Source of the DNA: Rosettibacter firmus | GTDB taxonomy: Bacteria > Bacteroidota > Ignavibacteria > Ignavibacteriales > Melioribacteraceae | Length of the DNA stretch: 64,000 nt | Direction of reading: 5' to 3' | NCBI RefSeq assembly: GCF_036860695.1 | Contig: NZ_JAYKGJ010000001.1 | Location: 310,001-374,000, forward strand | In this document: positions 3,181 through 21,567 of the stretch, in pieces | How the letters are laid out: the number at the start of each line of letters is the position of its first letter | Numbering within the stretch: the stretch's first letter is position 1 | Notes under the pieces: model-generated | Databases searched by the model: none | The model's input: only the letters and a program-made list of their open reading frames with translations | What the model was told of the DNA's origin: nothing | Translations under genes and position numbers: made by a program

Positions 3181-3214
3181 TTTTGTTCTACATAATTTTA
3201 TAGGTTTTTTAAAT

Positions 3215-6567: not shown

Positions 6568-8077
6568 TCTAAAACCAGTTAGATTCAGACTACCTCTATT
6601 CTGGAAATTCTCCATAGCAATAATCACTATCGTTATGATTTTTGGTTCAATTAATTCCATACTAATTTATAATAATGTTCAAAGGTCTCTACAATCAGAA
6701 ACAGAAAAAAGAGCTTTATTTATTGCCAGAAGCATCTCAAATCAAATTATCCCTTCAATTCTGTTCGAAGATTATATCACTTTACAAAATACAATCAACA
6801 ACATTAAAGAAATAGATGAAAATATTTTTTATGTGTTTGTAGTTGACAATAAAAATAAACTGATAGTTCATACGTTTCAATCAGAATTCCCCTATTCATT
6901 GCTTGATGCAAATTCCTTAAAAGATAATCAAACTTCAAAAACACAATTACTTTTGCTGAAAGATTTTAAAGAAGAGTTAATCCTTGATATTGCTGTACCA
7001 ATTATGGATGGAAGAATTGGTACTGTTAGAGTTGGTCTTAAAGAAAGTTCCATAATTTCTGATGTTCAGCAAACTGTAAATGTATTCTGGCTCATGGTTG
7101 CTACTTTCCTTGCAATTGGTATTATTGGTGCTTTTGTGTTTGCTAAGTTTATTACAAAACCAATTAAAGAAATTCAGAATGTTGCAGATAACATCGACTT
7201 AAATCAGATTGGTAAAAATAAAATTCCTCAGATTAAAATAAGAGAAAAATTCCTTAATAAAATCAAAATGCTTTTCAGAGCCGAAGATGAAATTGATATT
7301 CTTGCAGATAAATTTAATCAGATGATCGTTCGTCTCGATCAAGCTTATCAAGATTTACAAAAAGCACAATCAACAATTATTCAATCAGAAAAACTTGCTA
7401 CTGTAGGTACATTAACAGCAGGACTCGCACATGAGATAAATAATCCCGTTGCTGGTTTACAAAATTGCATAAGAAGAATTAAGAATGATCCATCAAATAT
7501 TCAACAGAGTATTAAATATCTTAACATGATGGAAGCTGCCATTGATAAGATTGAAAAAGTAGTTAGTAATCTCCTAAACTTCACAAGAAGGCAAAGCACA
7601 GATTTTGAAAAATTGTCCATAAACGAAATTATTGAAAATTCTTTATTGCTTGTGAGCCATCGTTTTGAGAACGCAAAAATATCGATTACAAAAAATTTAC
7701 CACTCAATTTACCTGCTATTAGAGCTAATAAAAATCAACTTGAACAGGTAATTTTAAATTTGTTTATTAATGCAATTGATGCTATTGAAGAAAAAAGTAA
7801 AACTCAACCACAATGTGAAAAAAGAATTAATATAAGTGCCACAAGTGATAATTACTTTCTAATTATTAAAATAGAAGATTCTGGTTCAGGAATTCCTGAG
7901 AATTTATTAGACAAAATATTTGATCCTTTTTTTACAACCAAACAACCAGGTAAAGGTACTGGACTTGGTTTATCAATTGTTTATAACATCATTGAATCGC
8001 ATAACGGAAAAATTCGAATCGAAAGTAAAGAAGGAAAAGGAACAAGTGTAATAATATCTATACCTGTTTATAAATAA
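6548..8077 (+). CDS. Sensor histidine kinase of the arsenic X-S-R system
   Basis: Membrane kinase of about 509 residues. It has two TM helices flanking a periplasmic sensor domain of about 130 residues, a HAMP linker (after FAKFITKPIKEIQN), a HisKA box GLAHEINNPVAG with the phospho-His, and HATPase motifs (NAIDAIEE, DSGSGIP, GTGLGLS). The frame is open from TTG 6527; I prefer ATG 6548, which still overlaps the stop of the binding-protein gene by about 20 nt. Such overlap supports translational coupling. It should receive the signal from the lipoprotein and phosphorylate the NtrC-type regulator encoded next. Confidence 0.88.
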   Translation: MTLFINNLKPVRFRLPLFWKFSIAIITIVMIFGSINSILIYNNVQRSLQSETEKRALFIARSISNQIIPSILFEDYITLQNTINNIKEIDENIFYVFVVDNKNKLIVHTFQSEFPYSLLDANSLKDNQTSKTQLLLLKDFKEELILDIAVPIMDGRIGTVRVGLKESSIISDVQQTVNVFWLMVATFLAIGIIGAFVFAKFITKPIKEIQNVADNIDLNQIGKNKIPQIKIREKFLNKIKMLFRAEDEIDILADKFNQMIVRLDQAYQDLQKAQSTIIQSEKLATVGTLTAGLAHEINNPVAGLQNCIRRIKNDPSNIQQSIKYLNMMEAAIDKIEKVVSNLLNFTRRQSTDFEKLSINEIIENSLLLVSHRFENAKISITKNLPLNLPAIRANKNQLEQVILNLFINAIDAIEEKSKTQPQCEKRINISATSDNYFLIIKIEDSGSGIPENLLDKIFDPFFTTKQPGKGTGLGLSIVYNIIESHNGKIRIESKEGKGTSVIISIPVYK

Positions 8078-8170
8078 CTTCGTGTACCTTTGTGATATAT
8101 TTTGTTCCACTTTGTGATAAAATTAATAACAACGAAGTATAACAAAAGTTTTCACAAGAACACTAAGAAA
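8078..8170. repeat. CTTTGTG-type degenerate palindromic intergenic repeat, copy 1
   Basis: The left part carries CTTCGTGTACCTTTGTGATA and CTTTGTGATAAAA; the right part carries TTAATAACAACGAAGTATAAC. The arms are imperfect inverted copies. It starts directly after the kinase stop and ends before the ribosome-binding site of the response regulator. Confidence 0.6.
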
Positions 8171-8191
8171 AAATTTTTACAGGGATTGACT

Positions 8192-9547
8192 ATGAAAAAA
8201 TTAAATATCTGTATTATAGAAGATGAAGAAACATTAAGGGAATCATTGAAAGATGATCTAATTGATGCAGGATATTCTGTTGGTGCATTTGAAAATCCAA
8301 TCAAGGCACTTCAATACTTTAAAAAGAAAAGCTGCGATATTATAATCTCTGATATACGATTACCTGAAATGAATGGATTAGAATTGCTATCCAAGATAAA
8401 ATCAATGAATCCTACCACTTATGTGATTATGATGACTGCATTCGGAAGTGTTGAAAACGCTGTTGAAGCAATGAAAATGGGAGCTTATGACTACATAACA
8501 AAACCTTTTAATAAAGAAGAATTATTATTATTAATTGATAGAATTAAAGAACTAAAATCACTTCAAAACAAAAACAAAGAATATCAAGATTACTTTGAAG
8601 ATAAATTCAATTTTGATTCATTCATTGGGAAGAGCAATTTTGTTAAGGAATTAAAAGAAACATTAAAAATCATTTCACAAACAAATTCAACAATTCTAAT
8701 CACTGGCGAAACAGGAACAGGAAAAGAATTAGTTGCTAATCTTATTCATTATAATTCTCCGAGAAGAGATAAACCACTAATAAAAGTAAGTTGTGGAATA
8801 TTATCAAAAGAAGTAATTGAAAGTGAACTATTCGGTCACGAGAAAGGTGCATTTACAGGAGCAGATAAACTCCGTATTGGAAGATTTGAAAAAGCAGATC
8901 AGGGAACTATCTATCTCGACGATGTTGATGATATACCACTTGAAGTACAGATTAAATTATTACGTGTTCTGCAAGAACAAGAAATCGAAAGAGTAGGTAG
9001 CAGTATCCCAATAAAAATTGATGTAAGAGTTATTGCATCCACAAAAGCAAATTTAAAACAACTTATTAAAGAAGGTAAATTCCGTGAAGATTTGTATTAC
9101 AGATTAAATGTATTACCTGTAAACCTTAAACCTCTTCGTGAAAGGAAGGAAGATATAATACCATTATTCAATTATTTTCTCTCAGAATTTTCGGCTGGAA
9201 AAACATTCCAAATTGATGATAAAGTTTATGAAATTCTAATGAATTATAATTGGCCTGGAAATGTTAGAGAATTGAAAAATATGGCTGAGAGATTATCTAT
9301 TCTTTGTTACGATTGTAAAATTGATCCATCAAAACTTCCTCAAGAAATAATTACAAACTTTTCAACTGATATAAATTTATTATCTGATTCAAATAAAACA
9401 TTGAACCAGATTCTTGAAGAAGTTGAAATAAAATTAATTAAAAATGCCCTACTACAAACAAATTACAATAAAGCTAAAGCAGCAGAACTTTTAGGTATAC
9501 CACCTTCAACATTAAAAAGTAAAATTGAGAAATACAGAATTGAATAA
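8192..9547 (+). CDS. Sigma54-dependent NtrC-family response regulator
   Basis: About 451 residues: a receiver domain (phospho-acceptor Asp54 in ISDIRLPEMNG, Lys104), an AAA+ domain with Walker A GETGTGKE (172-179), the GAFTGA loop (219-224) that contacts sigma54, Walker B YLDDVDD, and a C-terminal Fis-type helix-turn-helix (NKAKAAELLGI). The intact GAFTGA loop means targets should have -24/-12 promoters. I start at ATG 8192, preceded by AGGGATTG; the longer frame from 8102 only reads through an intergenic repeat. It is the likely activator of the tatA-porin-oxidoreductase operon starting at 10184. Confidence 0.92.
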   Translation: MKKLNICIIEDEETLRESLKDDLIDAGYSVGAFENPIKALQYFKKKSCDIIISDIRLPEMNGLELLSKIKSMNPTTYVIMMTAFGSVENAVEAMKMGAYDYITKPFNKEELLLLIDRIKELKSLQNKNKEYQDYFEDKFNFDSFIGKSNFVKELKETLKIISQTNSTILITGETGTGKELVANLIHYNSPRRDKPLIKVSCGILSKEVIESELFGHEKGAFTGADKLRIGRFEKADQGTIYLDDVDDIPLEVQIKLLRVLQEQEIERVGSSIPIKIDVRVIASTKANLKQLIKEGKFREDLYYRLNVLPVNLKPLRERKEDIIPLFNYFLSEFSAGKTFQIDDKVYEILMNYNWPGNVRELKNMAERLSILCYDCKIDPSKLPQEIITNFSTDINLLSDSNKTLNQILEEVEIKLIKNALLQTNYNKAKAAELLGIPPSTLKSKIEKYRIE

Positions 9548-9958: not shown

Positions 9959-10131
9959 AATTCTTTCCTTTTTTAATGCAAACATATATATTCATTGTTA
10001 TGTTAATGTTAAGGAAGTATTAATAAATAATTAAGAAACGAAAACTCGTCTATTGCGTCTGGATTTCGTCGACACGGTTTTAATTATTTCCTCAAATGAC
10101 CTAATTACTTAATAAAATTAAATATTAACTC

Positions 10132-10149
10132 TTGGCATTATGATTGATT
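10132..10149 (+). promoter_or_regulatory. Candidate sigma54 (-24/-12) promoter for the tatA/oxidoreductase operon
   Basis: TTGGCATTATGATTGATT matches the -24 element (TTGGCA) perfectly. It has TTG at the -12 position with the correct spacing, but GA replaces the consensus GC. It lies about 35 bp before the tatA ATG and directly downstream of the genes for a GAFTGA-type activator. The match at -12 is imperfect. Confidence 0.5.
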
Positions 10150-10183: not shown

Positions 10184-10345
10184 ATGTTTGGGAATTTAGG
10201 ATTTACAGAATTACTAATTATTGCTGGAATTATTATGCTCCTTTTCGGTGCAAAAAGAATTCCTGAAATTGCAAAAGGAATTGGGAAAGGAATTTATGAA
10301 TTCAAAAAAGAAATTAAATCAATTGAAGATATAACAAAAAAATAA
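10184..10345 (+). CDS. tatA: TatA/E twin-arginine translocase subunit (short)
   Basis: 53 residues. An N-terminal membrane helix (FTELLIIAGIIMLLFGAKR) is followed by an amphipathic helix (IPEIAKGIGKGIYEFKKEI), with the conserved FG hinge and PE...GKG pattern of TatA. The start ATG follows CAGGATTTAC. It is the first gene of the operon leading to the porin, FeS, NrfD and Tat-dependent molybdoenzyme genes, suggesting that extra TatA is made when the enzyme is induced. No tatB or tatC is present in the window. Confidence 0.9.
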   Translation: MFGNLGFTELLIIAGIIMLLFGAKRIPEIAKGIGKGIYEFKKEIKSIEDITKK

Positions 10346-10362
10346 AATCTAAGGAGAATCCA

Positions 10363-11460
10363 ATGCAAAAAACATTTCTTACCATTATAGCAATTGTGCT
10401 ATCAACAAATTTTCTGCTTTCACAAGAAGTTACTAATAAAGGTAGATTCTCTGGTTATATGTTTGGTGATTATTTTTATAATGTAGCAAGAGATACTGGC
10501 ATTTCATCACTTTCTAATGTTGCAAATGGAGGCAAAAAGGATTTTAATGGATTTCAGTTCAGAAGAATTTATTTTACTTACGATTACAATATCTCAGAAA
10601 AATTTACTACACGGCTTCGCCTTTCTCATGAACCTAAAACTTATGGAAGCGATGACAAATTAGTATTCTTTATTAAAGATGCTTACATACAATGGAATAA
10701 TATCTGGGCTGGGAGCGATTTTATTTTTGGAATACAACCTACTCCAACCTGGGAAGTATCAGAGACAATCTGGGGAAATCGATTTCTTGAGAAAACTCTT
10801 CTAGATTTAAGAGGGATAGCTACTTCAAGAGATTTTGGTATTTCACTAAAAGGTAAAATTGATAAGCAAGGGATATTTAAATACTGGTTGATGATTGGTA
10901 ATAATTCAGGTAATTCTTTTGAATCAGATAAATACAAAAGATTCTATGCTCATATTCAGTACACACCAATCAAACAATTCACTGCTACATTTTATGCAGA
11001 TTTTAAAGCAAGACCAAATATCAATGACCCTGCAAGTACTTCTAATCCACCAGAAACTGTTGCAAATAATGATTTGACTTATGCCCTGTTTCTTGGATAT
11101 AAAGAAAAAGATGCATACACATTTGGAATAGAAAGCTTTTTAAATCAGAGACAAAATGGAATGATAAGTAAAGGGACATTAAAAGATAAAACCGGAATAG
11201 GTTTGACAGTTTTTGGTTTATATAATTTTACAAAAGAAGTAGCAGTTGTTGGAAGATATGACTATTACGATCCAAACACTGATTCTGACGTAAAAGGAGA
11301 TTCTAGAAATTGGTTCATATTCAGCTTGAATTACAAACCAAATGATAAAGTTACAATTAGTCCTAATGTTATTATTGAAACTTATGAATCATTACCAAAT
11401 AGACGAAAATTTGATACATCAATAACACCAAGAATAACATTCTTTTATACATTTTTATAA
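10363..11460 (+). CDS. Outer-membrane porin-like beta-barrel protein
   Basis: 365 residues with a signal peptide (about 20 residues ending in LLSQ), alternating amphipathic beta strands and a C-terminal aromatic strand (RITFFYTFL), typical of outer-membrane barrels. It has no plug or TonB box. It is located 17 bp after tatA with an AAGGAG ribosome-binding site, and is probably co-transcribed with the oxidoreductase. By context it may admit the oxyanion substrate (arsenate) into the periplasm, similar in role to phosphate-selective OprP/OprO-like porins, but substrate specificity cannot be read from the sequence. Confidence 0.75.
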   Translation: MQKTFLTIIAIVLSTNFLLSQEVTNKGRFSGYMFGDYFYNVARDTGISSLSNVANGGKKDFNGFQFRRIYFTYDYNISEKFTTRLRLSHEPKTYGSDDKLVFFIKDAYIQWNNIWAGSDFIFGIQPTPTWEVSETIWGNRFLEKTLLDLRGIATSRDFGISLKGKIDKQGIFKYWLMIGNNSGNSFESDKYKRFYAHIQYTPIKQFTATFYADFKARPNINDPASTSNPPETVANNDLTYALFLGYKEKDAYTFGIESFLNQRQNGMISKGTLKDKTGIGLTVFGLYNFTKEVAVVGRYDYYDPNTDSDVKGDSRNWFIFSLNYKPNDKVTISPNVIIETYESLPNRRKFDTSITPRITFFYTFL

Positions 11461-11519
11461 AAACTCGTAGTACAGATTAATAGTTCGTGTTGAGTTTAGA
11501 TAAAATAAAAGGAGAAGCA

Positions 11520-12362
11520 ATGGCAGAAAAAATAAAAGAAATTGAAAAAGAAACATCATCAATCAGCAGAGATGAGTTTCTTTCCAAGTTAATAAAAATT
11601 GGAGCCGGTACACTTGCAGCTACAATTGTGAGTAATGGAATGTTAGGGACTGCATCCAAACTGATTGCAAAAAGTAAAAATGAAACACCTGTAAAAAGAA
11701 AATATCATTATGGAATGGTAATCGATACTCGTCGATGTGTTGGATGTCGTGCTTGTGTACTTGCCTGCAAAGCAGAAAATAAAACTCCTCCAGGAGTTTC
11801 TTATACAGTTGTATTCGAAGAAATTTTAGAGAATCGACCAAACGACAAACCCGTTTTTATGACCAAACCTTGTTTTCATTGTGAATATCCACCTTGCACA
11901 GATGTATGCCCTGTTTCAGCAACTTATAAACGTGAGCAAGATGGAATTGTTGTGGTAGATTACGATAGATGTATTGGCTGTCGTTATTGTATGACTGCTT
12001 GTCCTTACTCTGCACGATGGTTCGACTTCGGTGAAAATTATCCAGCTATCGAACAAGGTACTGATTGGTCAAATGTTCCATCTCCAGAGTATAAACAATT
12101 CAGGAAAAGAGAACACGAACAATCTCCAATTGGTAATGTTCGCAAGTGTACTTTTTGTTTACATCTACAGGATGAAGAAGGCAAATACAATAAAGCCGAA
12201 GGACGCTGGCCTGCATGTGCAAAAACATGTACAGGAAAAGCCATTCACTTTGGTGATTTCAATGATCCAAATAGTGAAGTTTCTATTTTGCTTCGCGAAC
12301 GTCAATACATTCGCTTGAAAGAAGAACTTGGTACAAGTCCAAATGTTTATTACTTAATATAG
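11520..12362 (+). CDS. Four-cluster iron-sulfur subunit of a DMSO-reductase-family complex (ArrB/PsrB-like)
   Basis: 280 residues with 16 Cys in four ferredoxin-type groups: 73/76/79/83, 118/121/126/130, 151/154/157/161 and 210/213/233/237, giving four probable [4Fe-4S] clusters. It is the electron wire between an NrfD-type quinol subunit and the catalytic subunit. Residues 16-45 look like a Tat signal (SRDEFLSKLIK plus a hydrophobic stretch) but the second Arg is Asp. I use ATG 11520 behind GGAGAAGC; the frame extends to 11487. It is followed after 11 bp by the membrane subunit. Confidence 0.9.
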   Translation: MAEKIKEIEKETSSISRDEFLSKLIKIGAGTLAATIVSNGMLGTASKLIAKSKNETPVKRKYHYGMVIDTRRCVGCRACVLACKAENKTPPGVSYTVVFEEILENRPNDKPVFMTKPCFHCEYPPCTDVCPVSATYKREQDGIVVVDYDRCIGCRYCMTACPYSARWFDFGENYPAIEQGTDWSNVPSPEYKQFRKREHEQSPIGNVRKCTFCLHLQDEEGKYNKAEGRWPACAKTCTGKAIHFGDFNDPNSEVSILLRERQYIRLKEELGTSPNVYYLI

Positions 12363-12373
12363 GAGAAGGTCAG

Positions 12374-13660
12374 ATGAATTTCATAAAAGAATTATTAAGT
12401 GATAAAAATAAAGTTTCACAAAATCTTAAAAAAATTTTTTGGATAATAGGAAGTTTGCTTTTTCTTGTTGGCTTTTATGGATGGGCAGTAAGATTAATTG
12501 ATGGTCATATCAAAGCTAATTATGGAAGTATAGTTACCTGGGGACTTTGGGTTGCAGCATATATTTATTTTATTGGTCTTTCAGCAGGTTCATTTCTTGT
12601 TTCATCTTTGGTTTATGTATTTAACTACAAAAAATTTGAACGTATCGGTAAACTTGCTGTTTTTACAGCACTTATAACTTTACTGATGGCTTTACTCTCT
12701 ATATGGGCTGACCTTGGTCATATGGGAAGAGCATGGCATGTAATGATTTATCCAAATTTTAAATCACCAATGGCATGGATGATTTATCTTTACTTAATTT
12801 ATATGTTATTACTAGTTTTTGAAATTTATTATTTGTTAAGATACGATTTTGTTATAGGTGCAAATAATGAAACACTGAAAGGAAAACTTTATAAAATACT
12901 CTCGTTTGGCTCAAAAGATAAAAGTGAAGAATCCAGGTTACGAGATAAAAAGATTGTAAAAGTATTAGCAACTGCCGGCGTTCCAATTGCAATACTATTT
13001 CATGGTGGAGTTGGAGCATTATTTGGAGTCGTTGCAGCTCGCCCTCACTGGCATAGTGGATTATTCCCAATATTGTTTTTGCTTTCAGCATTAGTTAGTG
13101 GAGGAGCTTTGCTTACTCTTATTTCTTCTATATTTCAAGAAGGATGGACAAAAAATCGTGAAATTGTTATAGATCTTGGTAAAATGGTATTAGGATTATT
13201 ATTGCTTGATATTTTATTCCAAATTTCTGAATTCCTGATTGTTTATCGTGGTGGTATTCCTGGACATATCGCTGGTTGGGATCTTGTAATTAAAGGACCT
13301 TACGCATGGGTTTTCTGGGGCTGGCAGGGTTTTGTAGGAACTCTTATCCCACTATTTTTATTAACATTAAAAAGAAAATCACCTCAGTGGGTTGCTTTAG
13401 CAGGTTTATTAATTGCAGCAGGAATTTTTGGACTGCGTCTCAACATTGTTATTCCCGGTCTTGCAGTTGAAGAAATTCATGGTTTGACAAGCGCAATTTA
13501 TTCTCATAGAGTTGATCCTCACTACTTCCCAAGTTTATCAGAATGGCTCTTAACATTTGGTATTGTTGGATTTGGTATGTTGTTATTTGGATTAGGAGAA
13601 TATTTTCTCCCGAAGGAGGATGAAAGCAAAACAGAATTATTATCTGAATCAAAAGTTTAA
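12374..13660 (+). CDS. NrfD/PsrC-type membrane quinol-interacting subunit
   Basis: 428 residues with about ten TM helices of the NrfD/PsrC/ActC family, including the family-typical ARPHWHSGLFPILF segment and no heme ligands of the NarI type. It should oxidise menaquinol and pass electrons to the FeS subunit, as in polysulfide, tetrathionate and some arsenate reductases. An insert between helices 4 and 5 (around residues 160-195) is charged and cytoplasmic. An AGGAGAAGG ribosome-binding site precedes the ATG. It lies between the FeS and catalytic genes in the same operon. Confidence 0.9.
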   Translation: MNFIKELLSDKNKVSQNLKKIFWIIGSLLFLVGFYGWAVRLIDGHIKANYGSIVTWGLWVAAYIYFIGLSAGSFLVSSLVYVFNYKKFERIGKLAVFTALITLLMALLSIWADLGHMGRAWHVMIYPNFKSPMAWMIYLYLIYMLLLVFEIYYLLRYDFVIGANNETLKGKLYKILSFGSKDKSEESRLRDKKIVKVLATAGVPIAILFHGGVGALFGVVAARPHWHSGLFPILFLLSALVSGGALLTLISSIFQEGWTKNREIVIDLGKMVLGLLLLDILFQISEFLIVYRGGIPGHIAGWDLVIKGPYAWVFWGWQGFVGTLIPLFLLTLKRKSPQWVALAGLLIAAGIFGLRLNIVIPGLAVEEIHGLTSAIYSHRVDPHYFPSLSEWLLTFGIVGFGMLLFGLGEYFLPKEDESKTELLSESKV

Positions 13661-13672
13661 TGGAGAAAAAAA

Positions 13673-16174
13673 ATGGCATATATATTTGACGAAAAAGTTG
13701 GAAGAAGAAAATTTATTAAAACAACTTCACTTTCAGCAGCAGCTGCATCCGCTCTCGGATTAAGTGGCTGTGCAACATGGGGTTCAAAAGAAAGAGAACT
13801 TAGTATAAATGAAGAAGGATTAAAACAATGGGGACGCCAAGCCGGTGAATGGATTCCTTCGTGCTGTAATATGTGTGGTGGACAATCGGGAATTCTTGTT
13901 CACGTAGTTAATGGTGTTGTCGAAAAAATTGAACCTAACCACTGGAATCCTAATAACTATTCAAATATTTCAACTGATTTCTTCGATGGTTACACAGAAG
14001 AATATGGAACAAAAGAAGGTGGATGTATCTGTCCAAAAGGAAATGCAGGCATAATGGCATTATACGATCCGGATAGAATTAAAAAACCTTTGAAGAGAAA
14101 GAATCCAGAACGCGGTCTTGATGTTGATCCACAATGGGAAGAAATCAGCTGGGGACAAGCATTAAATGAAATTTCTGCAAAACTCAAACAACTGCGCGAT
14201 AACAACGAAGCTCACAAACTTTTATGGATGAGTGAAGATCATTCTTTTACTCATATTCAAGCAGACTTCTGTAAGCTCTTTGGAACACCAAATTATTCAA
14301 TGCATTCAAACCTTTGTGATGTAGCTCGCAAAGCTTCCTTTAAAACAGTCGTTGGCGACGAACGACCATTAGCAGATTTCATTCAATCAAAATATATTTT
14401 GCTTTTTGGCTGGAATCCTACTAGCGCAATAAAGTGGGTTTATCTTCCAAGAATTTTAACAAGAGCTATCGAAAGAGGTGCTCGTTTAGTTGTTGTTGAT
14501 CCTTATCTTTCGGATACAGCTGCAAAGGGACACGACTGGCTGGCTATTCGTCCAGGCACTGATGGTGCACTTGCACTTGCTCTTGCTCATTGCATTATTC
14601 GCGATGGTTTGTATGATAAAGATTTTGTCGATAACTGGACAGTTGGCTTTGATAAATATGCTGAATATGTAAAAGATAAAACTCCTGAGTGGGCTGAAAA
14701 GATTACTAGTATACCTGCACATAAAATTGAAGAAGTTGCACACGATCTGGCAACAATTAAACCTGCAGTAGTAGATGCATGGAGCGGTCCCGGTCAGCAT
14801 ACCAATGGAGTGCAAGGCGGTAGAGCTATTGCTGCACTTGCTGCTTTAATTGGAGGCTATGATAAACCAGGTACTCTCATTCTACCAAATACTGGCGGAA
14901 ATAAACATATTGAAATTGAACCAAGTGAATTTGCTGAAAAAACATTAAAACAACCAAGATTTGATGAATTGAATAAATATCCACTGGGACATAAATCTGG
15001 TGTTTATACTCAGACATTTAATAATATCATTGATGGCAAAGGACCATATGATGCAAAAATGTTGGTTTGTGTTTTTCAAAATCCAGTGATGAGTGTTCCA
15101 GGTGGTACAAAAACTGTTGTAGAAGCTTTCAAAAAATTAGAAATGACTGTTGTTATTGATACTATGATGAGTGAAACCGCAATGCTTGCAGATTATGTAT
15201 TGCCAGGAACTGTATATCTCGAACGTTATGATTTAAATACACACTGGGTTACCTGGCCTGCGGTTGGATTACGTCAACCTGTTGTAAAACCATTATTTGG
15301 TCAACTCACTGAATATGAAACTGTAATTGCACTTGGAAGAAAATTAGATTTAAGAACAAAAGATGGAAAGAAATTTTTTGAGATTAGTCCACTATCCGGT
15401 GAAAAAATAGAAGATCTGACAAAATGGTATGAAGATTATTTATCAAAAGAACTTCTTGAAGGTAAACCCAAAATTACTTTGCAACAATTAAAGGAATTGC
15501 CAGGTGCAGTTTGGGTTGATAAAAAAGGAACTGAGTATGAAAAATATGCAAAAGAATTACCTGCTGATAAATTGAAAGGAGCTTTTTATGATGGGAATGC
15601 AATTTACGATAAACCAAAAGATAAAGGTGGAAAGAGAATCGGAACAATAATAAATGGTAAAAAAGTAAGAGGCTTCTTCACTAAATCTGGAAAAGTTGAA
15701 TTTTATTCTGAATGGCTTGTAGAAAAGAAAGATGCAGATGGAAATCCCATTAATCCTTTACCTGAATACAAACCGAGAGATTGGCAACCAAATGATGAGT
15801 ATCCATTATATTTAATCAATTGGAAAGAAGCAAGTCATACTCACACAAGAACACAAAACAATGCATGGCTTCTGGAAATAAAAGGACACAATCCAATTAT
15901 AATGAATCCTACAACTGCAGCAAAGTATGGAATTGAAGATGGTGATGAAATATGGTTGGAATCACCTTATGGCAAAGTAAAAGGCAAAGTTAAATTAACA
16001 AAAAGAATTCATCCTGAAGTAATTGGCGCTCAACATGGATTTGGACATACTGCTCTCGGTAAATCTGCAAAAGATAGAGGTACAAACACTGGAATATTAA
16101 ACATTACAAAATCAGATCCACTTTCTGGAATGGCAGTGCATAAAGAGATTTGCGTTAAAGTTTATAAAGCATAA
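13673..16174 (+). CDS. Molybdopterin catalytic subunit, Psr/Phs/Arr superfamily; probable respiratory arsenate reductase
   Basis: 833 residues. The N-terminus has a Tat motif (GRRKFIK, 10-16) and then LSGC (30-33), so it is likely exported folded and lipid-anchored. The FeS motif is CNMC (65-68) followed by Ser72, where a third Cys is usual, with the last Cys at 120 (CPKGNAG). The Mo ligand is probably Cys215 in MHSNLCDVARK (210-220). The His-Ser-x-x-Cys-x4-Lys spacing equals the arsenate-contacting set I recall from Shewanella ArrA, yet the ArrA RGRY segment is absent. The C-terminal domain has the usual MopB fold (GDEIWLESPYGKVKG). The operon and the X-S-R regulators point to arsenic; thiosulfate or polysulfide remain possible substrates. 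Confidence 0.85.
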   Translation: MAYIFDEKVGRRKFIKTTSLSAAAASALGLSGCATWGSKERELSINEEGLKQWGRQAGEWIPSCCNMCGGQSGILVHVVNGVVEKIEPNHWNPNNYSNISTDFFDGYTEEYGTKEGGCICPKGNAGIMALYDPDRIKKPLKRKNPERGLDVDPQWEEISWGQALNEISAKLKQLRDNNEAHKLLWMSEDHSFTHIQADFCKLFGTPNYSMHSNLCDVARKASFKTVVGDERPLADFIQSKYILLFGWNPTSAIKWVYLPRILTRAIERGARLVVVDPYLSDTAAKGHDWLAIRPGTDGALALALAHCIIRDGLYDKDFVDNWTVGFDKYAEYVKDKTPEWAEKITSIPAHKIEEVAHDLATIKPAVVDAWSGPGQHTNGVQGGRAIAALAALIGGYDKPGTLILPNTGGNKHIEIEPSEFAEKTLKQPRFDELNKYPLGHKSGVYTQTFNNIIDGKGPYDAKMLVCVFQNPVMSVPGGTKTVVEAFKKLEMTVVIDTMMSETAMLADYVLPGTVYLERYDLNTHWVTWPAVGLRQPVVKPLFGQLTEYETVIALGRKLDLRTKDGKKFFEISPLSGEKIEDLTKWYEDYLSKELLEGKPKITLQQLKELPGAVWVDKKGTEYEKYAKELPADKLKGAFYDGNAIYDKPKDKGGKRIGTIINGKKVRGFFTKSGKVEFYSEWLVEKKDADGNPINPLPEYKPRDWQPNDEYPLYLINWKEASHTHTRTQNNAWLLEIKGHNPIIMNPTTAAKYGIEDGDEIWLESPYGKVKGKVKLTKRIHPEVIGAQHGFGHTALGKSAKDRGTNTGILNITKSDPLSGMAVHKEICVKVYKA

Positions 16175-16243
16175 TTTTGCTAATGTTCTTTAAAATATTT
16201 TCTCCGAGTTGATGAGTCTAAAAAGATTTGATTTTCAATGAGA

Positions 16244-16326
16244 TACTTTGTGATGCCCTTTGTACTCTTTGTGATAAAAAGATATTAACAACGGCACACA
16301 AAGTTTTTCACAAATTAACACATAGG
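16244..16326. repeat. CTTTGTG-type degenerate palindromic intergenic repeat, copy 2
   Basis: Contains ACTTTGTGATG, CTTTGTACTCTTTGTGATAA, a TTAACAAC centre and ACACAAAG on the right. It lies between the oxidoreductase stop and the structured leader RNA. Confidence 0.55.
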
Positions 16327-16354
16327 ATTTAAGTTCAAAAATCTTCATGATTCA

Positions 16355-16524
16355 TCAACCGCACTGTCTGGCTTCAGACAGATAGGGTTAATCTGGAAAC
16401 GGATTAGCCTGCCAGTTCGTCGAAGTATTTCGATGGGACGCTTTGCAAAGGAGAGTTAATTTTTACAGATTGATTTCAATCTCGATAATTTTATTAACCC
16501 CGCAAATGCAAAGCGGGGTTTTTT
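16355..16524 (+). ncRNA. Structured leader RNA with terminator: candidate riboswitch controlling the Moco operon
   Basis: Visible elements: a perfect 7-bp hairpin with GCTT loop (16364-16370/16375-16381); a 7-bp hairpin with GAAA tetraloop (16389-16395/16400-16406), extendable to about 11 bp with wobbles; a TCGAA/TTCGA hairpin (16420-16433); and an intrinsic terminator (16496-16503/16513-16520 plus T-run). GCTTTGCA (16440-16447) is perfectly complementary to TGCAAAGC (16507-16514) in the terminator, giving an antiterminator option. The element is much more G+C-rich than its surroundings. The downstream operon makes molybdenum cofactor, so a Moco-sensing RNA is the first guess, but I cannot confirm the known moco motif from memory. 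Confidence 0.65.
16496..16524 (+). terminator. Intrinsic terminator of the Moco-operon leader
   Basis: AACCCCGC and GCGGGGTT form an 8-bp GC-rich stem around a 9-nt loop, followed by six T. It lies between the oxidoreductase operon and the AhpD-like gene, so it either ends the upstream transcript or acts as the leader's off switch. Confidence 0.85.
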
Positions 16525-16556: not shown

Positions 16557-16625
16557 ATTTCCTTCGAGCTCTTTGTTGTGAAAAGAAAATACTAACAATA
16601 AAGAATTACGAAGGAATACAAAGTG
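16557..16625. repeat. CTTTGTG-type degenerate palindromic intergenic repeat, copy 3
   Basis: CCTTCGAGCTCTTTGTTGTG on the left and AATTACGAAGGAATACAAAG on the right form imperfect inverted arms around an ACTAACAATAAA centre. It sits just before the ribosome-binding site of the AhpD-like gene. Confidence 0.55.
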
Positions 16626-16661
16626 AATAATTATTTTCGAATAAAATTAAAGGAGTTAATA

Positions 16662-16979
16662 ATGTCACAAATACCAAAACGATTTCAAAAATTCACTGAA
16701 GATTATCCTGAAGTTGCCAAAGCTTATGAACAGCTTGGCGATGCTGTCCATAATGCTGGTCCTCTCGATGAAAAAACAAGAGCACTTATTAAACTTGCAA
16801 TTTCAACTGGAGCAAAATTAGAAGGAGCAGTTCATTCACATGTTCGCAAAGCATTAAAAGCTGGATGTACTGTAGAAGAGATGCGACATGTTGTTTTACT
16901 TTCACTCCCTACTATTGGACTTCCTTCTATGATGGCTGCCTTAAGCTGGATTGATGATATAATTGAGGATAAAAAATGA
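16662..16979 (+). CDS. Carboxymuconolactone decarboxylase/AhpD-like protein lacking redox Cys
   Basis: 105 residues of the CMD/AhpD helical fold (DEKTRALIKLAISTGAKLEG, then VHSHVRKALKAGCTVEE). AhpD peroxidase proteins carry a CxxC-x2-H motif at this helix; here the Cys positions are Glu/Ala/Val while the His is kept, so peroxidase or thiol chemistry is unlikely. ATG 16662 follows AGGAGTTA. Its stop overlaps the ATG of the ChrA-like gene (ATGA), implying coupling. First gene behind the structured leader; function unknown. Confidence 0.8.
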   Translation: MSQIPKRFQKFTEDYPEVAKAYEQLGDAVHNAGPLDEKTRALIKLAISTGAKLEGAVHSHVRKALKAGCTVEEMRHVVLLSLPTIGLPSMMAALSWIDDIIEDKK

Positions 16980-17500
16980 TTGAAAGTTTATTAAATCTTT
17001 TCTGGGCATTTATTAAAGTAGGTTCACTTTCATTCGGTGGTGCTTATTCACTAATTCCATTGATTGAAAGAGAAGTTGTAAAAAATTATCAATGGCTTAG
17101 TCACGATGAATTTTTAAAAGTACTCGGTATGGTCGAAATATTTCCTGGTGCAATTTCCATTAAGTTTGCAACTTATACTGGTTATAAAACAGCTGGTATT
17201 CTTGGTGCTATTGTAGCAAATCTTGGAAATATTTTTACTCCAGCAATATTAATTTTGTTTAGTACCTACATTTATTCAATTTATGAAAAAAATATTCTTG
17301 TAACTAAAGCATTTAATGGAATTAAATTCGCCGTGATCGGAATGATTGCTGCCATTATGTATCAATATGCAGTTAAGAATGGTAATCACTGGCAGGAATT
17401 TTTACTACTTACTATTGGAGCAATATTAATAATATTCTTTAAACTACATCCAGCTTTTATAGTGCTCATTGCAGCATTAATAGGAATAATAATATTGTGA
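16976..17500 (+). CDS. chrA: Short-chain (half-size) ChrA-family transporter
   Basis: 174 residues with about five to six TM helices and the ChrA signature FIKVGSLSFGGAYSLIPL near the N-terminus plus FPGAISIKFATYTGY. This is one CHR domain; short ChrA proteins usually occur as adjacent pairs that form antiparallel heterodimers, but here there is only one. The family exports chromate in known cases. Its place at the head of a molybdenum-cofactor operon raises the possibility of molybdate, tungstate or arsenate-related transport, which is speculation. Confidence 0.85.
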   Translation: MIESLLNLFWAFIKVGSLSFGGAYSLIPLIEREVVKNYQWLSHDEFLKVLGMVEIFPGAISIKFATYTGYKTAGILGAIVANLGNIFTPAILILFSTYIYSIYEKNILVTKAFNGIKFAVIGMIAAIMYQYAVKNGNHWQEFLLLTIGAILIIFFKLHPAFIVLIAALIGIIIL

Positions 17501-17535
17501 AATCTCCATTATTAGTTTTGACAATCTTTGAAATG

Positions 17536-17612
17536 GACTTCGTATATCTCTGTAAGAAAAATAAAATTAACAACAAAGTATAACGAAGAATTATGCTAAA
17601 AGACACAGAAGA
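17536..17612. repeat. CTTTGTG-type degenerate palindromic intergenic repeat, copy 4
   Basis: ACTTCGTATATCTCTGTAAG and TTAACAACAAAGTATAACGA are inverted imperfect arms separated by an A-rich centre; this is the clearest palindrome of the set. Confidence 0.6.
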
Positions 17613-17630
17613 AATAAAAACTCCGGGAAT

Positions 17631-17710
17631 CTTTGTAATGTACTTTGTGTTCCTTTGGGATAAAAGCAAAATTAAATACAAAGCATTACATATTTCGAAG
17701 GAATTCTTTG
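17631..17710. repeat. CTTTGTG-type degenerate palindromic intergenic repeat, copy 5
   Basis: CTTTGTAATGTACTTTGTGT and TCCTTTGGGATAAAAG on the left, ATACAAAGCATTACA and TTTCGAAGGAATTC on the right. Together with copy 4 it fills the 250-bp gap before moaA, in which I see no gene. Confidence 0.5.
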
Positions 17711-17750
17711 ACTGTGGTAACACTAAGATTTATAAAGAATTACAAATTAA

Positions 17751-18761
17751 ATGAATCGAGAACAAATGAAATTAACAGATAATTACAATCGCATTCACGA
17801 TTACGTGCGTATTTCATTAATTGATAAGTGTAATCTAAACTGTATTTATTGCAATCCCTTAAATACACTAGTAAAGTATGAATCAAACAAATCTATACTT
17901 TCTTATGAAGAGTTATTTCGATTAATCCATATTCTTGTAAAAGATTTAGAAGTAAAAAAAATTCGATTTACAGGTGGAGAACCGCTAATCAGAAAAGATA
18001 TTATGAAATTCTTCGAAATGATTTATCCATTAAAAAATAAATATGATTTTGAAATGGGCATCACAACTAATGGAACACATTTGCTCGATAAACTTGAATT
18101 ACTTCGTTTATATGGAATTGAATTATTAAACATAAGTCTTGACACTTTAAACAAATCAAAATTCATCTCTATTACTGGAAAAGACTTATTTGACGAAACA
18201 ATTTCTGCAATCAATAAAGCAATCGAAACTGGCTTCAAGTCACTCAAAATAAATATGGTTGTTATTAAAAATGTTAATGATGATGAGTTGCTTTCTTTTA
18301 TCGAATATTTCAAATCTTTCCCGATCAGTTTGAGATTTATAGAATATATGCCATTTACTGGAAATGGATGGAACGATTCTAAATTTTTAAGCTGGAATGA
18401 AATGAAATCAGAAATAATAAAAAAATATAATCTTATTGAAATTGAAAACGATGGTAAAATATCAAAAGACTATTTAATTGAAAATGCACAATTAAAAATT
18501 GGATTCATCAGCTCTATATCAGATCATTTTTGTGATAGTTGTAATCGTTTAAGAATAACAGCGAAGGGAGAGATAAAAACCTGTCTCTTTTCAAAACCTG
18601 AAAAACAAAGCTTGAAATCTCTTCTCTCAAATCAATCAATAACAGATGATGAAATTGCAGAGTTCATACAAAGTTCATTAAAAACAAAATGGTTTAATCA
18701 TCCAGATGTTAATGAGTTATCAAAATTAAATCAAAATAATATGATGAGTATTGGAGGATGA
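17751..18761 (+). CDS. moaA: GTP 3',8-cyclase MoaA
   Basis: Radical-SAM enzyme of 336 residues catalysing the first step of molybdopterin synthesis, from GTP toward cyclic pyranopterin. The N-terminal SAM cluster is CNLNCIYC; the C-terminal second cluster is in FCDSCNRLRIT and KTCLF. The protein ends in IGG, the conserved MoaA C-terminal Gly-Gly. Starts at 17751 or at an in-frame ATG at 17766 are both plausible. The stop overlaps the moaC ATG (GGAGGATGA), so the two are translationally coupled. Confidence 0.95.
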   Translation: MNREQMKLTDNYNRIHDYVRISLIDKCNLNCIYCNPLNTLVKYESNKSILSYEELFRLIHILVKDLEVKKIRFTGGEPLIRKDIMKFFEMIYPLKNKYDFEMGITTNGTHLLDKLELLRLYGIELLNISLDTLNKSKFISITGKDLFDETISAINKAIETGFKSLKINMVVIKNVNDDELLSFIEYFKSFPISLRFIEYMPFTGNGWNDSKFLSWNEMKSEIIKKYNLIEIENDGKISKDYLIENAQLKIGFISSISDHFCDSCNRLRITAKGEIKTCLFSKPEKQSLKSLLSNQSITDDEIAEFIQSSLKTKWFNHPDVNELSKLNQNNMMSIGG

Positions 18762-19243
18762 AAAAATTATCACACATAAACAGCACTGGCAAAGCAGAGA
18801 TGGTTGATGTTTCCGAAAAAGAAATTACAATACGAACTGCCGAAGCTTATGCCGAAGTAAAAGTTTCAAAAGAAATTTTTGATGCAATAAAAAATAATGA
18901 AATAAAAAAAGGTGATGTGCTTGCTATTGCTAAGTTTGCTGGAATTCAGGCAGCAAAAAAAACAAGTGAGTTAATCCCGCTCTGTCACAACATTTTCATC
19001 TCTAAAATTGATCTGGAATTAAAACTGAATTCGAATAAGAAAACAATTGAAATAAAATCGTATGCAAAAACAACTGCACAAACAGGCATTGAAATGGAAG
19101 CATTAACAGCTGTTTCAGTTGCAGCATTAACTATTTACGATATGTGCAAAGCGATCGATAAATCAATGGTTATAAACGAAATAAAATTATTGAGTAAAAC
19201 TGGAGGAAAAAGTGGAAACTATACTAAAAGAAATACACGTTAA
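18758..19243 (+). CDS. moaC: Cyclic pyranopterin monophosphate synthase MoaC
   Basis: 161 residues; completes the first stage of Moco synthesis with MoaA. Family motifs: HINSTGKAEMVDVSEKEITI, IPLCHNIFISK and TGIEMEALTAVSVAALTIYD, ending KTGGKSGN. The ATG overlaps the moaA stop. The last 32 nt overlap the GTG start of the MOSC gene, a compact operon layout. Confidence 0.95.
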   Translation: MKKLSHINSTGKAEMVDVSEKEITIRTAEAYAEVKVSKEIFDAIKNNEIKKGDVLAIAKFAGIQAAKKTSELIPLCHNIFISKIDLELKLNSNKKTIEIKSYAKTTAQTGIEMEALTAVSVAALTIYDMCKAIDKSMVINEIKLLSKTGGKSGNYTKRNTR

Positions 19244-19706
19244 TCAATTTTCTCAGCATTCAATTTCCACTGGTAAAGTTGTTGCAATTTCAATTAGCAA
19301 GAAAAAAGGAATTCCTAAAACAAATGTTCAATCAGCAAAGCTAATAGAAAATTTTGGAATTGAAGGAGATGTTCACGCAGGAAACTGGCACAGACAGGTA
19401 AGTTTTCTTGCATTAGAAAGTATTGATAAAATGAGAGAGAAAGGATTACCAAATCTTCGTCCAGGTGCATTTGCAGAAAACATTACAACAGAATTTATAA
19501 CTCTACCAAATCTTGAAGTCGGGACAAGAATTCAAATTGGTAATGATGCAATACTGGAGATAACTCAAATTGGAAAAGAATGTCACAGCAAATGTGCAAT
19601 CTTTACAAAGGTTGGCGACTGTGTAATGCCACGTGAAGGAATTTTTGCAAGAGTAATTCGTGGTGGAGAAATATTTATTGGTGATCAAATCAAAATTTTA
19701 AATTAG
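19212..19706 (+). CDS. MOSC domain protein
   Basis: 164 residues with a MOSC (molybdenum cofactor sulfurase C-terminal) domain: NFGIEGDVHAGNWHRQVSFL, GAFAENITTEF, the conserved Cys in QIGKECHSKC, and PREGIFARVIRGG. MOSC proteins carry sulfur to Moco enzymes or modify the cofactor; in Bacteroidota a single-domain MOSC often sits among moa/moe genes. The GTG start lies inside moaC. No MogA/MoaB domain is fused, so the adenylylation enzyme is not supplied here. Confidence 0.88.
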   Translation: METILKEIHVNQFSQHSISTGKVVAISISKKKGIPKTNVQSAKLIENFGIEGDVHAGNWHRQVSFLALESIDKMREKGLPNLRPGAFAENITTEFITLPNLEVGTRIQIGNDAILEITQIGKECHSKCAIFTKVGDCVMPREGIFARVIRGGEIFIGDQIKILN

Positions 19707-19708
19707 TG

Positions 19709-19771
19709 ACTTTTCGTGGTAAATGTATTACAAAGAAGTTCACAAAGTACTTTCAAAAAAGAACACGAAGG
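19709..19771. repeat. CTTTGTG-type degenerate palindromic intergenic repeat, copy 6
   Basis: CTTTTCGTGGTAAATG on the left, then TACAAAGAAGTTCACAAAGT and GAACACGAAGG, ending right at the moeA ribosome-binding site. The moeA frame is open through it from 19706, which explains the spurious longer reading. Confidence 0.5.
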
Positions 19772-19777
19772 AGAATT

Positions 19778-20980
19778 ATGATTAATTATAATGAAGCTAT
19801 TGAAATAATAAAATCTGAAATCAGTAAAATAAAACTTAATTTAGAAGAAGTTGATATATTTGAATCATATAACCGCATACTTGCAGAAGATGTAATTGCA
19901 GATGTTGACCTTCCCCCTTTTGATAACTCGGCAGTGGATGGCTATGCAATTAAATTTTCAAATAGAAATCAATGGAATATAATTGGAGAAATTTCAGCTG
20001 GAAATTATTCGTCATTCAATCTCACAGAGAATGATGCGGTGTTAATTGCAACAGGTAGTAAACTTCCAGAAAATGCAGATACTGTTATTCCTATTGAAGA
20101 TGTTAACGTGAATGGTAATAATCTTCAATTGAAACAAAACATAACTATCAAAAAAGGAATTAATATTCGCACTCAGGGTAATGATTTAAGAATAAACGAA
20201 ATTGCTCTAAAACAATTCACAAAAATTGATTCAAAGTCAATTGCAGTGCTTGCAAGTTGTGGGAAAGAGAAAGTTAAAGTCTATTCAAAATTAAAAAGTG
20301 CATTACTTTCAACTGGAAATGAATTAATCCCGATTAACGAAAAACCAGCAGAAGATAAATTTCGGGTTTCTAATATCTATTCTCTTTATACAGCAATGAA
20401 AGAAATGAATCATACAGTTATCAATCTTGGTTTTACAAAAGATGATAAAGCATTGATTCGCAACAAAGTAGGAGCAGCACTAGAAATGAATATTGATATA
20501 TTGATTACAACCGGAGGTGTTTCTGTTGGCAAGTATGATTTTCTAAAAGAAATTTTCGCAGAACTGGGTGTACAGGAGAAATTCTGGAAAGTAAACATCA
20601 AACCAGGTAAGCCAATTTATTTTGGAGTTTATGAAAGTGATAATAGAATAATTTTAGTTTTTGGATTGCCTGGAAATCCAGTTTCGTCGCTTGTTAATTT
20701 TTATGTATTCATTAAACCAGCAATTGATTATTTATACAGGCAAAATAGTTTAAATAAATTTACCGCTATTCTTCAAAACGATTTAAAGAAAAAAGATGAG
20801 AAACGACATTTTTCCCGTGGAGTTTTATACATAGAAAATGACGAACTGAAAGTAACTTCAGAATTCTCACAATCATCTGGCAATCTTGTTGAAATGAGCC
20901 GTGCAAATTGTTTGATTGAAATTGAGGAATCAAGATTGAATCCGAAAAAAGGAGAAAAAGTAAAATGTATTCTGATATAA
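19778..20980 (+). CDS. moeA: Molybdopterin molybdenumtransferase MoeA
   Basis: 400 residues; inserts molybdate into adenylylated molybdopterin. Domain order is the usual MoeA: N-terminal DVDLPPFDNSAVDGYAI, a beta domain, the MoCF-binding domain with TTGGVSVGKYDF and GLPGNPVSSLVNFYVFI, and the C-terminal beta domain. ATG 19778 follows GAAGGAGAA. The final 16 nt overlap mobA. With moaA, moaC and mobA it makes most of the pathway. Confidence 0.95.
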   Translation: MINYNEAIEIIKSEISKIKLNLEEVDIFESYNRILAEDVIADVDLPPFDNSAVDGYAIKFSNRNQWNIIGEISAGNYSSFNLTENDAVLIATGSKLPENADTVIPIEDVNVNGNNLQLKQNITIKKGINIRTQGNDLRINEIALKQFTKIDSKSIAVLASCGKEKVKVYSKLKSALLSTGNELIPINEKPAEDKFRVSNIYSLYTAMKEMNHTVINLGFTKDDKALIRNKVGAALEMNIDILITTGGVSVGKYDFLKEIFAELGVQEKFWKVNIKPGKPIYFGVYESDNRIILVFGLPGNPVSSLVNFYVFIKPAIDYLYRQNSLNKFTAILQNDLKKKDEKRHFSRGVLYIENDELKVTSEFSQSSGNLVEMSRANCLIEIEESRLNPKKGEKVKCILI

Positions 20981-21567
20981 CAGGAGTAATTCTTGCCGGT
21001 GGAAAAAGTTCACGTATGGGTTTGAACAAAGCATTATTGAAATTAGGTGATAAAAAAATAATAGAGATAGCTGTTGATCTGATGAAATCAATTTTCCCGG
21101 AAGTTATTATTATAACTAATTCTCCAGATGAATATAGTTTTCTCCAACTTCCTTTATTCGAAGATATTTATAAATGGAAAGGACCACTTGCAGGGATTCA
21201 TTCAGCATTGATTAATTCAAAAACCGAAAAAGTTTTTGTCCTATCTTGTGATATGCCTTTGATGACAAAAGAAATGATCGAGTATATTATTAACTATGAA
21301 AGTGATAAACCAATTAAATTTTGTGAGGCTGCTGGTTATCATCAACCACTTGCTGGAGTTTATTCAAAATCATTAATAGCAGATATTGAAAATATTATAA
21401 GTAGCGAAAAGACAAATGATAAATCATTTCATCAATTTCTAAAAAATGTTAATGCAGAAATAATTTATCCACAAGGATTAACTTTTTATAGCGATGAAAT
21501 ATTTTTCAATGTTAACAATCCTGTGGACTATGATACAATATTGAAAAAGTTTCTTAAAACAGAATAG
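20965..21567 (+). CDS. mobA: Molybdenum cofactor guanylyltransferase MobA
   Basis: 200 residues. The nucleotidyltransferase signature GVILAGGKSSRMG plus the lysine in NKALL, and SCDMPLM for metal and GTP binding, identify MobA, which attaches GMP to Mo-molybdopterin. This yields the bis-MGD cofactor needed by DMSO-reductase-family enzymes such as the catalytic subunit at 13673-16174. Last gene of the Moco operon; the 233 bp after it hold nothing I can identify apart from AT-rich sequence. Confidence 0.93.
   Translation: MYSDITGVILAGGKSSRMGLNKALLKLGDKKIIEIAVDLMKSIFPEVIIITNSPDEYSFLQLPLFEDIYKWKGPLAGIHSALINSKTEKVFVLSCDMPLMTKEMIEYIINYESDKPIKFCEAAGYHQPLAGVYSKSLIADIENIISSEKTNDKSFHQFLKNVNAEIIYPQGLTFYSDEIFFNVNNPVDYDTILKKFLKTE

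Follow-up and report, generated by a model that had tools for sequence, protein, structure and literature searches.

An apparently uncharacterised, widespread clade of respiratory molybdoenzymes, with a candidate arsenate reductase in Rosettibacter firmus

In a stretch of 64,000 nucleotides from Rosettibacter firmus (contig NZ_JAYKGJ010000001.1, positions 310,001 to 374,000; hereafter the window), positions 10184 to 16174 encode tatA, a porin and the three subunits of a molybdoenzyme complex. The complex belongs to a real, widespread and apparently uncharacterised clade of respiratory molybdoenzymes, and its sequence and surroundings lead us to regard it as probably a periplasmic, non-Arr quinol:arsenate reductase of a new clade of complex iron-sulfur molybdoenzymes (CISM). 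An earlier note on this DNA had given the order tatA, porin, four-cluster iron-sulfur (FeS) protein, NrfD subunit and molybdopterin subunit (a B-C-A core), next to arsR, arsC, acr3 and a sensory trio; the open reading frames (ORFs), Pfam domains and coordinates agree with this description, and the arsenic genes and trio lie upstream in the window (arsR named by eye and similarity). The five genes are:

10184-10345, forward strand: tatA, Tat translocase component, by eye and similarity
10363-11460, forward strand: outer-membrane porin, BBP2-like (Stygiobacter electus ortholog above the BBP2 cut-off; the window's own porin has no Pfam or NCBIfam match)
11520-12362, forward strand: FeS subunit B with four 4Fe-4S motifs, ferredoxin domain above the Pfam cut-off; likely start 11520, ORF opening at 11487
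12374-13660, forward strand: NrfD-type membrane subunit C, PF03916 above cut-off
13673-16174, forward strand: catalytic molybdenum-bis(pyranopterin guanine dinucleotide) (Mo-bisPGD) subunit A, 833 residues; Tat signal by eye, Cys215 the Mo ligand by alignment

These are the parts of a CISM: a Mo-bisPGD subunit A, a membrane subunit C and a four-cluster subunit B, identified from Pfam domains, with the four Cys groups and twin-arginine-like N-terminus of subunit B recognised by eye. The molybdopterin domains of subunit A are above Pfam cut-offs, and no NCBIfam model reaches its cut-off with the 833-residue protein. The best model is PhsA (NF012032; 392.2 bits, cut-off 694). The ArrA model NF041714 gives 256.9 bits for a cut-off of 1600, strict enough that Nitrospirota ArrA-like rows (best 1164) also fall below it, and the TtrA model NF011567 gives 118.8 bits for a cut-off of 1750, which a TtrA-type Citrobacter row (663.1) misses as well. 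Among proteins of solved structure, Thermus PsrA and Shewanella ArrA come closest in sequence.

Using an alignment of four intact copies and two peptide patterns, we scanned a collection in which each of 84,980 species is represented by a single genome and found 52 loci, of which 51 were kept: the short partial match L115 is out of all clade counts, and contig ends truncate L100 and L106. The clade is undercounted because the scan used two peptide patterns only. Identities are 48-90%, with three loci at 36-38%, and record titles span about 20 phyla. All but one of the clade loci come from metagenome-assembled genomes (MAGs), many of them from groundwater; the exception is an isolate, Stygiobacter electus 09-Me. 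Its contig and the one in genome G300 are identical, and NCBI assigns its genus to Melioribacteraceae, the window's family. In the window's class an intact copy was present in 4 of 391 genomes, namely that of the window (G000), two of the same family (G017, 91%; G300, 90%) and one of another family (G215, 89%), and the next class matches reach at most 38%. A decayed core copy with several stops adjoins arsR and acr3 in G289 (L056:11078-13569), and a spirochaete MAG carries a clade copy 86% identical to the window.

The clade was monophyletic in a quick tree of 74 rows (support 100) and in a careful tree of 54 rows (100/100). The careful tree kept 22 of the quick tree's 33 clade rows (53 were available) and dropped nine 'other' rows that were long or odd (L020, L029, L032, L033, L035, L036, L120 and the second enzymes of L074 and L097); SrrA, SrdA, AnrA, SreA and SoeA were in neither tree. 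In the careful tree the clade is sister to TtrA-type enzymes, ArrA/ArxA and an unnamed group taken together (97/89; 90 in the quick tree), and the Psr/Phs group excludes it at 97/97. Approximately unbiased (AU) tests, on groups picked after the tree was seen, rejected a grouping with Arr/Arx alone (p 0.0001); a grouping with TtrA-type enzymes alone gave p 0.023 and was not obtained, and one with Psr/Phs was not rejected (p 0.097; 0.086 minus E. coli PhsA). On these results the clade itself is firm, and its exact sister is not. Of the suggested separation from ArrA, ArxA, PsrA and PhsA, that from ArrA and ArxA is supported by both trees, which also place the clade outside TtrA; the firm placement inside Psr/Phs that the earlier note had named as the contrary outcome did not occur, although the joint group survives the AU test. 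Model cut-offs, gene order and tree rule out a simple assignment to ArrA, and also to Psr/Phs, the AU result for the latter notwithstanding. Gene order across the 51 loci, some of which are cut by contig ends, is B-C-A in 33, B-A in nine, A-B in six, C-A in two and A alone in one. Among the titles and abstracts that our literature searches listed, none names this clade. The unnamed group, sister to ArrA/ArxA, is a MopB group (L015, L026, L041, L044) with A-B-C order and no Mo-ligand Cys in the alignment; perhaps it is non-catalytic and QrcB-like, the QrcB model giving 297 bits of 440 for L026.

The catalytic subunit has the motif His211-Ser212-x2-Cys215-x4-Lys220, whose spacing, as claimed earlier, is that of HSSVCAEAHK in the ArrA sequence 6cz7. 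We take the His-Ser before the Mo Cys, together with the RGRY segment, to be arsenate contacts of ArrA. We aligned 53 clade rows with ArrA, ArrA-like, ArxA, TtrA-type and Psr/Phs rows. His211, Asn213, Cys215, Asp216, Arg219, Lys220, Glu188 and Asp189 are invariant in all 53 clade rows, and His190 is present in 52. His-Ser ahead of the Mo Cys is common to ArrA, ArrA-like and ArxA rows and 46 of the 53 clade rows. TtrA-type rows have His-Thr (four of five) or His-Ala there, Thermus PsrA and the Psr/Phs rows of Ignavibacteria have Pro-Ser, and E. coli PhsA has His-Ala. Lys220 is found in ArrA of strain ANA-3 and is weak evidence for arsenate, because just two of five ArrA-like Nitrospirota rows have Lys and three have Asn. 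At the FS0 cluster, Cys64, Cys65 and Cys68 are present in 52 clade rows (the sole miss, L086, is shifted at this motif) and Cys120 in all 53; the third classical Cys is replaced by Ser in 32 rows, the window included, by Thr in nine and by Val in one, and kept in 11. The clade may have an FS0 cluster with altered ligation, CCxxC...C in place of CxxCxxxC...C. An AlphaFold2 model of the subunit (mean pLDDT 88) has ArrA 6cz7 as its best solved-structure match (VIA-align Z 38.7, rmsd 2.2, 713 aligned), followed by PsrA 2vpw (VIA-align Z 37.3, 686 aligned; Foldseek was also run).

The arsenate reading draws further on the surroundings of the core, which comprise:

3050-3619, forward strand: arsR-like regulator, by eye and similarity; ORF from TTG, true start probably later
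3727-4164, forward strand: arsC, thioredoxin-type, LMWPc fold (PF01451 above cut-off; TIGR02691 134.5 bits, under its 174.3 cut-off)
4259-5353, forward strand: acr3, arsenite efflux (TIGR00832 425.5 bits, cut-off 282.8)
5689-6567, forward strand: PhnD-like periplasmic binding protein, the 'T' or 'X' of the sensory trio (PF12974)
6527-8077, forward strand: sensor histidine kinase, Pfam domains sCache, HisKA and HATPase_c
8102-9547, forward strand: sigma-54-dependent response regulator (NCBIfam, Pfam); start probably 8192, by eye
10039-10048, forward strand: CGA-N4-TCG dyad CGAAAACTCG, possible activator site, at -137 to -146 before tatA
10133-10147, forward strand: sigma-54 -24/-12-like site TGGCATTATGATTGA, 51 bp ahead of tatA, sole pattern match in the 64 kb
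16190-16469, forward strand: molybdenum cofactor (Moco) riboswitch RF01055, 58.5 bits, between core and downstream genes
16623-16979, forward strand: carboxymuconolactone-decarboxylase (CMD) family protein (Pfam), conserved in the cassette
16976-17500, forward strand: short ChrA-like transporter, by eye
17751-21567, forward strand: moaA, moaC, MOSC, moeA and mobA molybdenum-cofactor genes, by eye

In G000, G017 and G300 the window-type three-gene core sits between conserved neighbours, with the sigma-54-like site, tatA and porin before it and the CMD and moa genes after it. In G009 and G046 a TtrA-type core occupies the corresponding frame, as far as the contigs reach. The G009 locus fits the published description of Melioribacter roseus (ars genes, an ArrTSR-like trio and a TtrA-type complex), and we take G009 to be that organism. 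The earlier suggestion that M. roseus uses the window's enzyme type fails here: the matching genome has no match to it at E 1e-60 and carries the TtrA-type core at the locus. Between the two cassette types the frame genes compared (ArsC, Acr3, PhnD, histidine kinase, response regulator, TatA, porin, CMD, ChrA and Moa/Moe/Mob) are 55-94% identical in comparable pairs, lowest for PhnD (55) and MobA (56), and the cores 47-48% (FeS), 29-32% (NrfD) and 24-26% (Mo subunit). G000, G017, G009 and G046 all have the sensor trio (the G300 contig stops before it); ars genes adjoin it in G000, G009 and G046, and none do in the scanned G017 stretch. This swap speaks for functional equivalence with the TtrA-type enzyme; as that enzyme is itself only a candidate arsenate reductase, the argument is an indirect one.

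Mobility of the two cores is argued differently. G009 and G046, which belong to different families, have TtrA-type cores of 95-97% identity and flanks of 61-86% (CMD 93); being more alike than its flanks, this core looks horizontally mobile. For the window-type core, a comparison of G000 with G300 gives similar values inside the core (87-90%) and in the flanks (77-91%), and one of G000 with G017 gives lower values for the porin (60%), PhnD (61%) and histidine kinase (70%) but not for TatA (88%) or ChrA (90%). No clear excess of divergence in the flanks is thus seen, and mobility of the window-type core is argued from its patchy spread: with so few copies in the class, 89-91% identity across families and the spirochaete copy, plain vertical inheritance is unlikely. 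No class genome has both cores, but with the window-type core in 4 and the TtrA-type core in 9 of 391 genomes, both are too rare for their mutual exclusion to be informative. Downstream of the core, a Moco riboswitch was found in the window and in five of the seven other loci searched (L054, L155, L058, L094, L096), G300, G046 and G009 being among the genomes that have it; none was found in L053 (G017) or L064 (the G215 copy).

Several further arrangements were observed. A spirochaete MAG has window-type and TtrA-type cores in tandem (L065:12958-18076). In L053 (G017), 11024-11308 and 17475-17759 encode an identical 95-residue translation and bracket the core, with short repeats around; these ORFs, presumably GIY-YIG-like, could serve recombination moving the core. 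The CMD-family and ChrA-like genes (16623-17500) accompany the cassette in both core types; ChrA was not seen in G300, and the S. electus cassette has, in place of the ChrA-like gene, one for a molybdate transporter of the MOT1 family, with CMD and moaA on either side (L054:4010-5197). On a Citrobacter arsenatis plasmid typed conjugative, a TtrA-type enzyme lies between ars genes (L131:7882-10908).

The control region is also shared. The dyad recurs at the same distance before tatA in all five loci compared, of both core types, and the pattern [AT]GGCA[CT]N5TTG[CA] has a single match, immediately ahead of tatA, in each of L053, L054, L155 and the joined stretch of G009; the L199 match is located about 210 bp before the porin match. 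Both patterns were written after the sites were seen and are descriptive. With four sigma-54 pattern matches in the 389 kb of 20 Psr/Phs loci, one per 64 kb is numerically unsurprising, and the weight of the site is its repeated position, not its number. Its presence with both core types fits control by the sigma-54 regulator encoded nearby.

Arsenic genes are found near clade members above expectation, as the proposed arsenic linkage would have it. They occur in 12 of 54 clade loci (a count that takes in four related loci, namely the window, L053, L056 and L114), PhnD in nine and either in 17; among controls, an arsenic gene or PhnD was found at 0 of 20 Psr/Phs loci, 0 of five 'other' loci and both TtrA-type loci. 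Clade and Psr/Phs loci differ with Fisher P 0.029 for arsenic genes and 0.004 for an arsenic gene or PhnD. As all Psr/Phs control loci are from Ignavibacteria, we added a gene-density test on the 33 of the 51 loci whose genomes were searched. There, arsC-type genes flank seven loci vs 0.19 expected (P 1.6e-9) and acr3 two vs 0.09 (P 0.003), at densities of 47 LMWPc/ArsC matches, a family that takes in some tyrosine phosphatases, and 21 Acr3 above cut-off in 130.1 Mb, with 0.53 Mb of flanks. ArrA was above its strict cut-off in none of these 33 genomes, S. electus included; one match fell below E 1e-60, at 207.8 bits. The PF00384 matches of S. electus are the window-type enzyme, a 738-residue enzyme taken, by size and score, as Psr/Phs-type, NuoG and a 1011-residue ActB-like protein. 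A Melioribacteraceae isolate of a new genus, predominant in the aquifer of well 9, is described as respiring iron, sulfur or arsenic compounds (PMC11708057, in the portion used here, citing Podosokorskaya 2023); family, strain number, well and that citation suggest that it is probably S. electus 09-Me. Beside 12 clade loci lies a 427-residue protein family with no NCBIfam or Pfam match (L104:8091-9371).

The arsenate reading rests on the swap, the shared sigma-54-like site and dyad, the rise of ttrA in M. roseus, the enrichment of arsenic genes, the lack of an ArrA match above cut-off in 33 genomes, the S. electus link and ArrA 6cz7 as best structure match. As to that rise, the portion of PMC5492636 used here describes M. 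roseus as respiring arsenate without ArrA, and reports that on arsenate ttrA and psrA both went up, psrA alone significantly. The sequence itself shows the component genes, the clade, the swap, the promoter-like site and the arsenic genes nearby. The substrate and the direction of the reaction are inferred, as are the roles of the ligands, the path of the electrons, the type of quinone and the regulation, and we propose the following. The PhnD-like protein would bind periplasmic arsenate and signal through the kinase and the sigma-54 regulator to the promoter before tatA, and arsenate would enter via the porin. NrfD would oxidise menaquinol, and the electrons would run along the four clusters of subunit B and then FS0 to the Mo held by Cys215. 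In a pocket lined by His211, Ser212, the clade-specific Glu188-Asp189-His190 and Arg219-Lys220, As(V) would be reduced to As(III), and ArsC and Acr3 would remove arsenic reaching the cell interior.

A number of observations weigh against this proposal. PhnD-like sensors serve tetrathionate systems too. The RGRY of ArrA is missing from subunit A, as the earlier note had seen, with SEDHS at that position; residue 212 is Ala in seven of the 53 clade rows; and the Z values for the ArrA and PsrA folds are close and not decisive for function. Of the 54 loci, 42 have no arsenic-processing gene in their flanks (many contigs are short), one of the seven arsC-type matches, in L109, is just 31% identical, and the G215 copy lies among housekeeping genes. 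The porin family is widespread (127 of 391 class genomes), and 12 further porin neighbourhoods (L194-L205) have neither core within the stretch fetched. The link between S. electus and the well 9 isolate is our inference, and since S. electus also has the 738-residue Psr/Phs-size enzyme, the arsenate role could lie there. The Ignavibacteria genomes compared likewise carry an enzyme of Psr/Phs size, and it is a Psr/Phs enzyme that the authors of PMC5492636, in the portion used here, prefer as the main arsenate reductase of M. roseus. In the literature we found no biochemistry or expression data for this clade.

The best surviving alternative, which we consider unlikely, is a reductase of a sulfur or selenium oxyanion (thiosulfate, tetrathionate, polysulfide or selenate) to which the arsenic genes are mere neighbours. 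The PhsA model scoring best at 392 bits (below 694), the AU test not rejecting a joint group with Psr/Phs, the B-C-A order, which is that of Ttr (PMC2500031, in the portion used here), and a weak TtrS model match of the PhnD-like protein (6.6e-06) would all suit it. Yet arsenic genes are enriched round the clade across phyla and were not found round 20 Psr/Phs loci, the Ignavibacteria genomes compared already have a separate Psr/Phs-size enzyme, and the residues ahead of the Mo Cys are His-Ser as in ArrA/ArxA, not the Pro-Ser of Thermus PsrA and Ignavibacteria Psr/Phs. We give little credence to a respiratory antimonate reductase like AnrA. That enzyme is a non-Arr member of the DMSOR family, and several enzymes are common to Sb(V) and As(V) (PMC11521347, PMC13284237, both in part), but in M. 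roseus the TtrA-type partner of the swap shows a response to arsenate, and antimonate does not come up in the portion of PMC5492636 used here. An arsenite oxidase working in the reverse direction, like ArxA, seems equally improbable. Two reference loci, which we take to be ArxA at 37-39% identity to ArrA, do have the PhnD, kinase and regulator trio, and at one of the two acr3, arsC and arsR are present as well. Their order, however, is A-B-C with a further FeS gene before, a grouping of the clade with ArrA/ArxA alone was rejected (p 0.0001), and M. roseus, with its matching locus frame, respires arsenate (PMC5492636, same portion). The Sb(III) oxidase Nao is ruled out, NaoA being nearest NapA and having a Rieske subunit (PMC11521347, in part).

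About 0.8 kb beyond the right end of the window, L063:4810-8322 encodes a 1171-residue protein with all model matches below cut-off; its N-terminal part resembles formate dehydrogenase or assimilatory nitrate reductase (NasC), its C-terminal part the NirB model.

Should the arsenate reading hold, its reach would go beyond R. firmus. The chances seem to us evenly balanced that the clade is a further lineage of respiratory arsenate reductases beside ArrA and the TtrA-type, present in about 20 phyla of bacteria that are for the most part uncultured and missed by arrA surveys, with a core that is a mobile unit swapped inside an arsenate-sensing operon and an FS0 that is maybe altered. The arrA gene is commonly used to track arsenic release in aquifers (PMC6730927, in part), and some arsenate respirers are described as lacking it, their enzyme being an open question (PMC9751042, in part). 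The clade is a concrete candidate that is searchable by the motifs CCNMCGG and HSNLCDVARK and is carried by one named isolate. The exchange in place with a TtrA-type core makes the question of function directly testable.

Among known systems, ArrAB of Shewanella ANA-3 (6cz7) shares with the window the CISM fold, the closest solved structure and HSxxCx4K; it differs in having RGRY and C-A-B order, in the model score (257 bits vs a 1600 cut-off) and in forming a separate clade. The gene order expected of ArrA, C-A-B or A-B (PMC2500031, in part), is not that of the window, B-C-A. PsrABC and PhsABC likewise have A, B and NrfD-type C subunits and the best-scoring NCBIfam model, but are ordered A-B-C, with Pro at 211 in Thermus PsrA and six Ignavibacteria rows (His in E. 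coli PhsA). The 'Unk' clade of Duval et al. 2008 is, as described in part of PMC2500031, similarly B-C-A, Tat-exported by signal, uncharacterised and near Arr/Ttr/Psr; it keeps C-x2-C-x3-C-x27-C, whereas here the third Cys is Ser or Thr in 41 of 53 rows and the window has 47 as its last spacer; the two clades may overlap. An unnamed lineage sister to TtrA, SrdA and the alternative arsenate reductase is mentioned in part of PMC10100899. Finally, the TtrA-type 'alternative' arsenate reductase of M. roseus (MROS_1074-1076) and Pyrobaculum aerophilum (PMC5492636, PMC10100899, both in part) differs in its catalytic subunit (24-26% identity over 558-587 aligned residues; about 1080 vs 833 residues; HT-x2-C in four of five rows vs HS-x2-C), and shares with the window the locus frame, sensor trio, sigma-54-like site, Moco riboswitch and B-C-A order.

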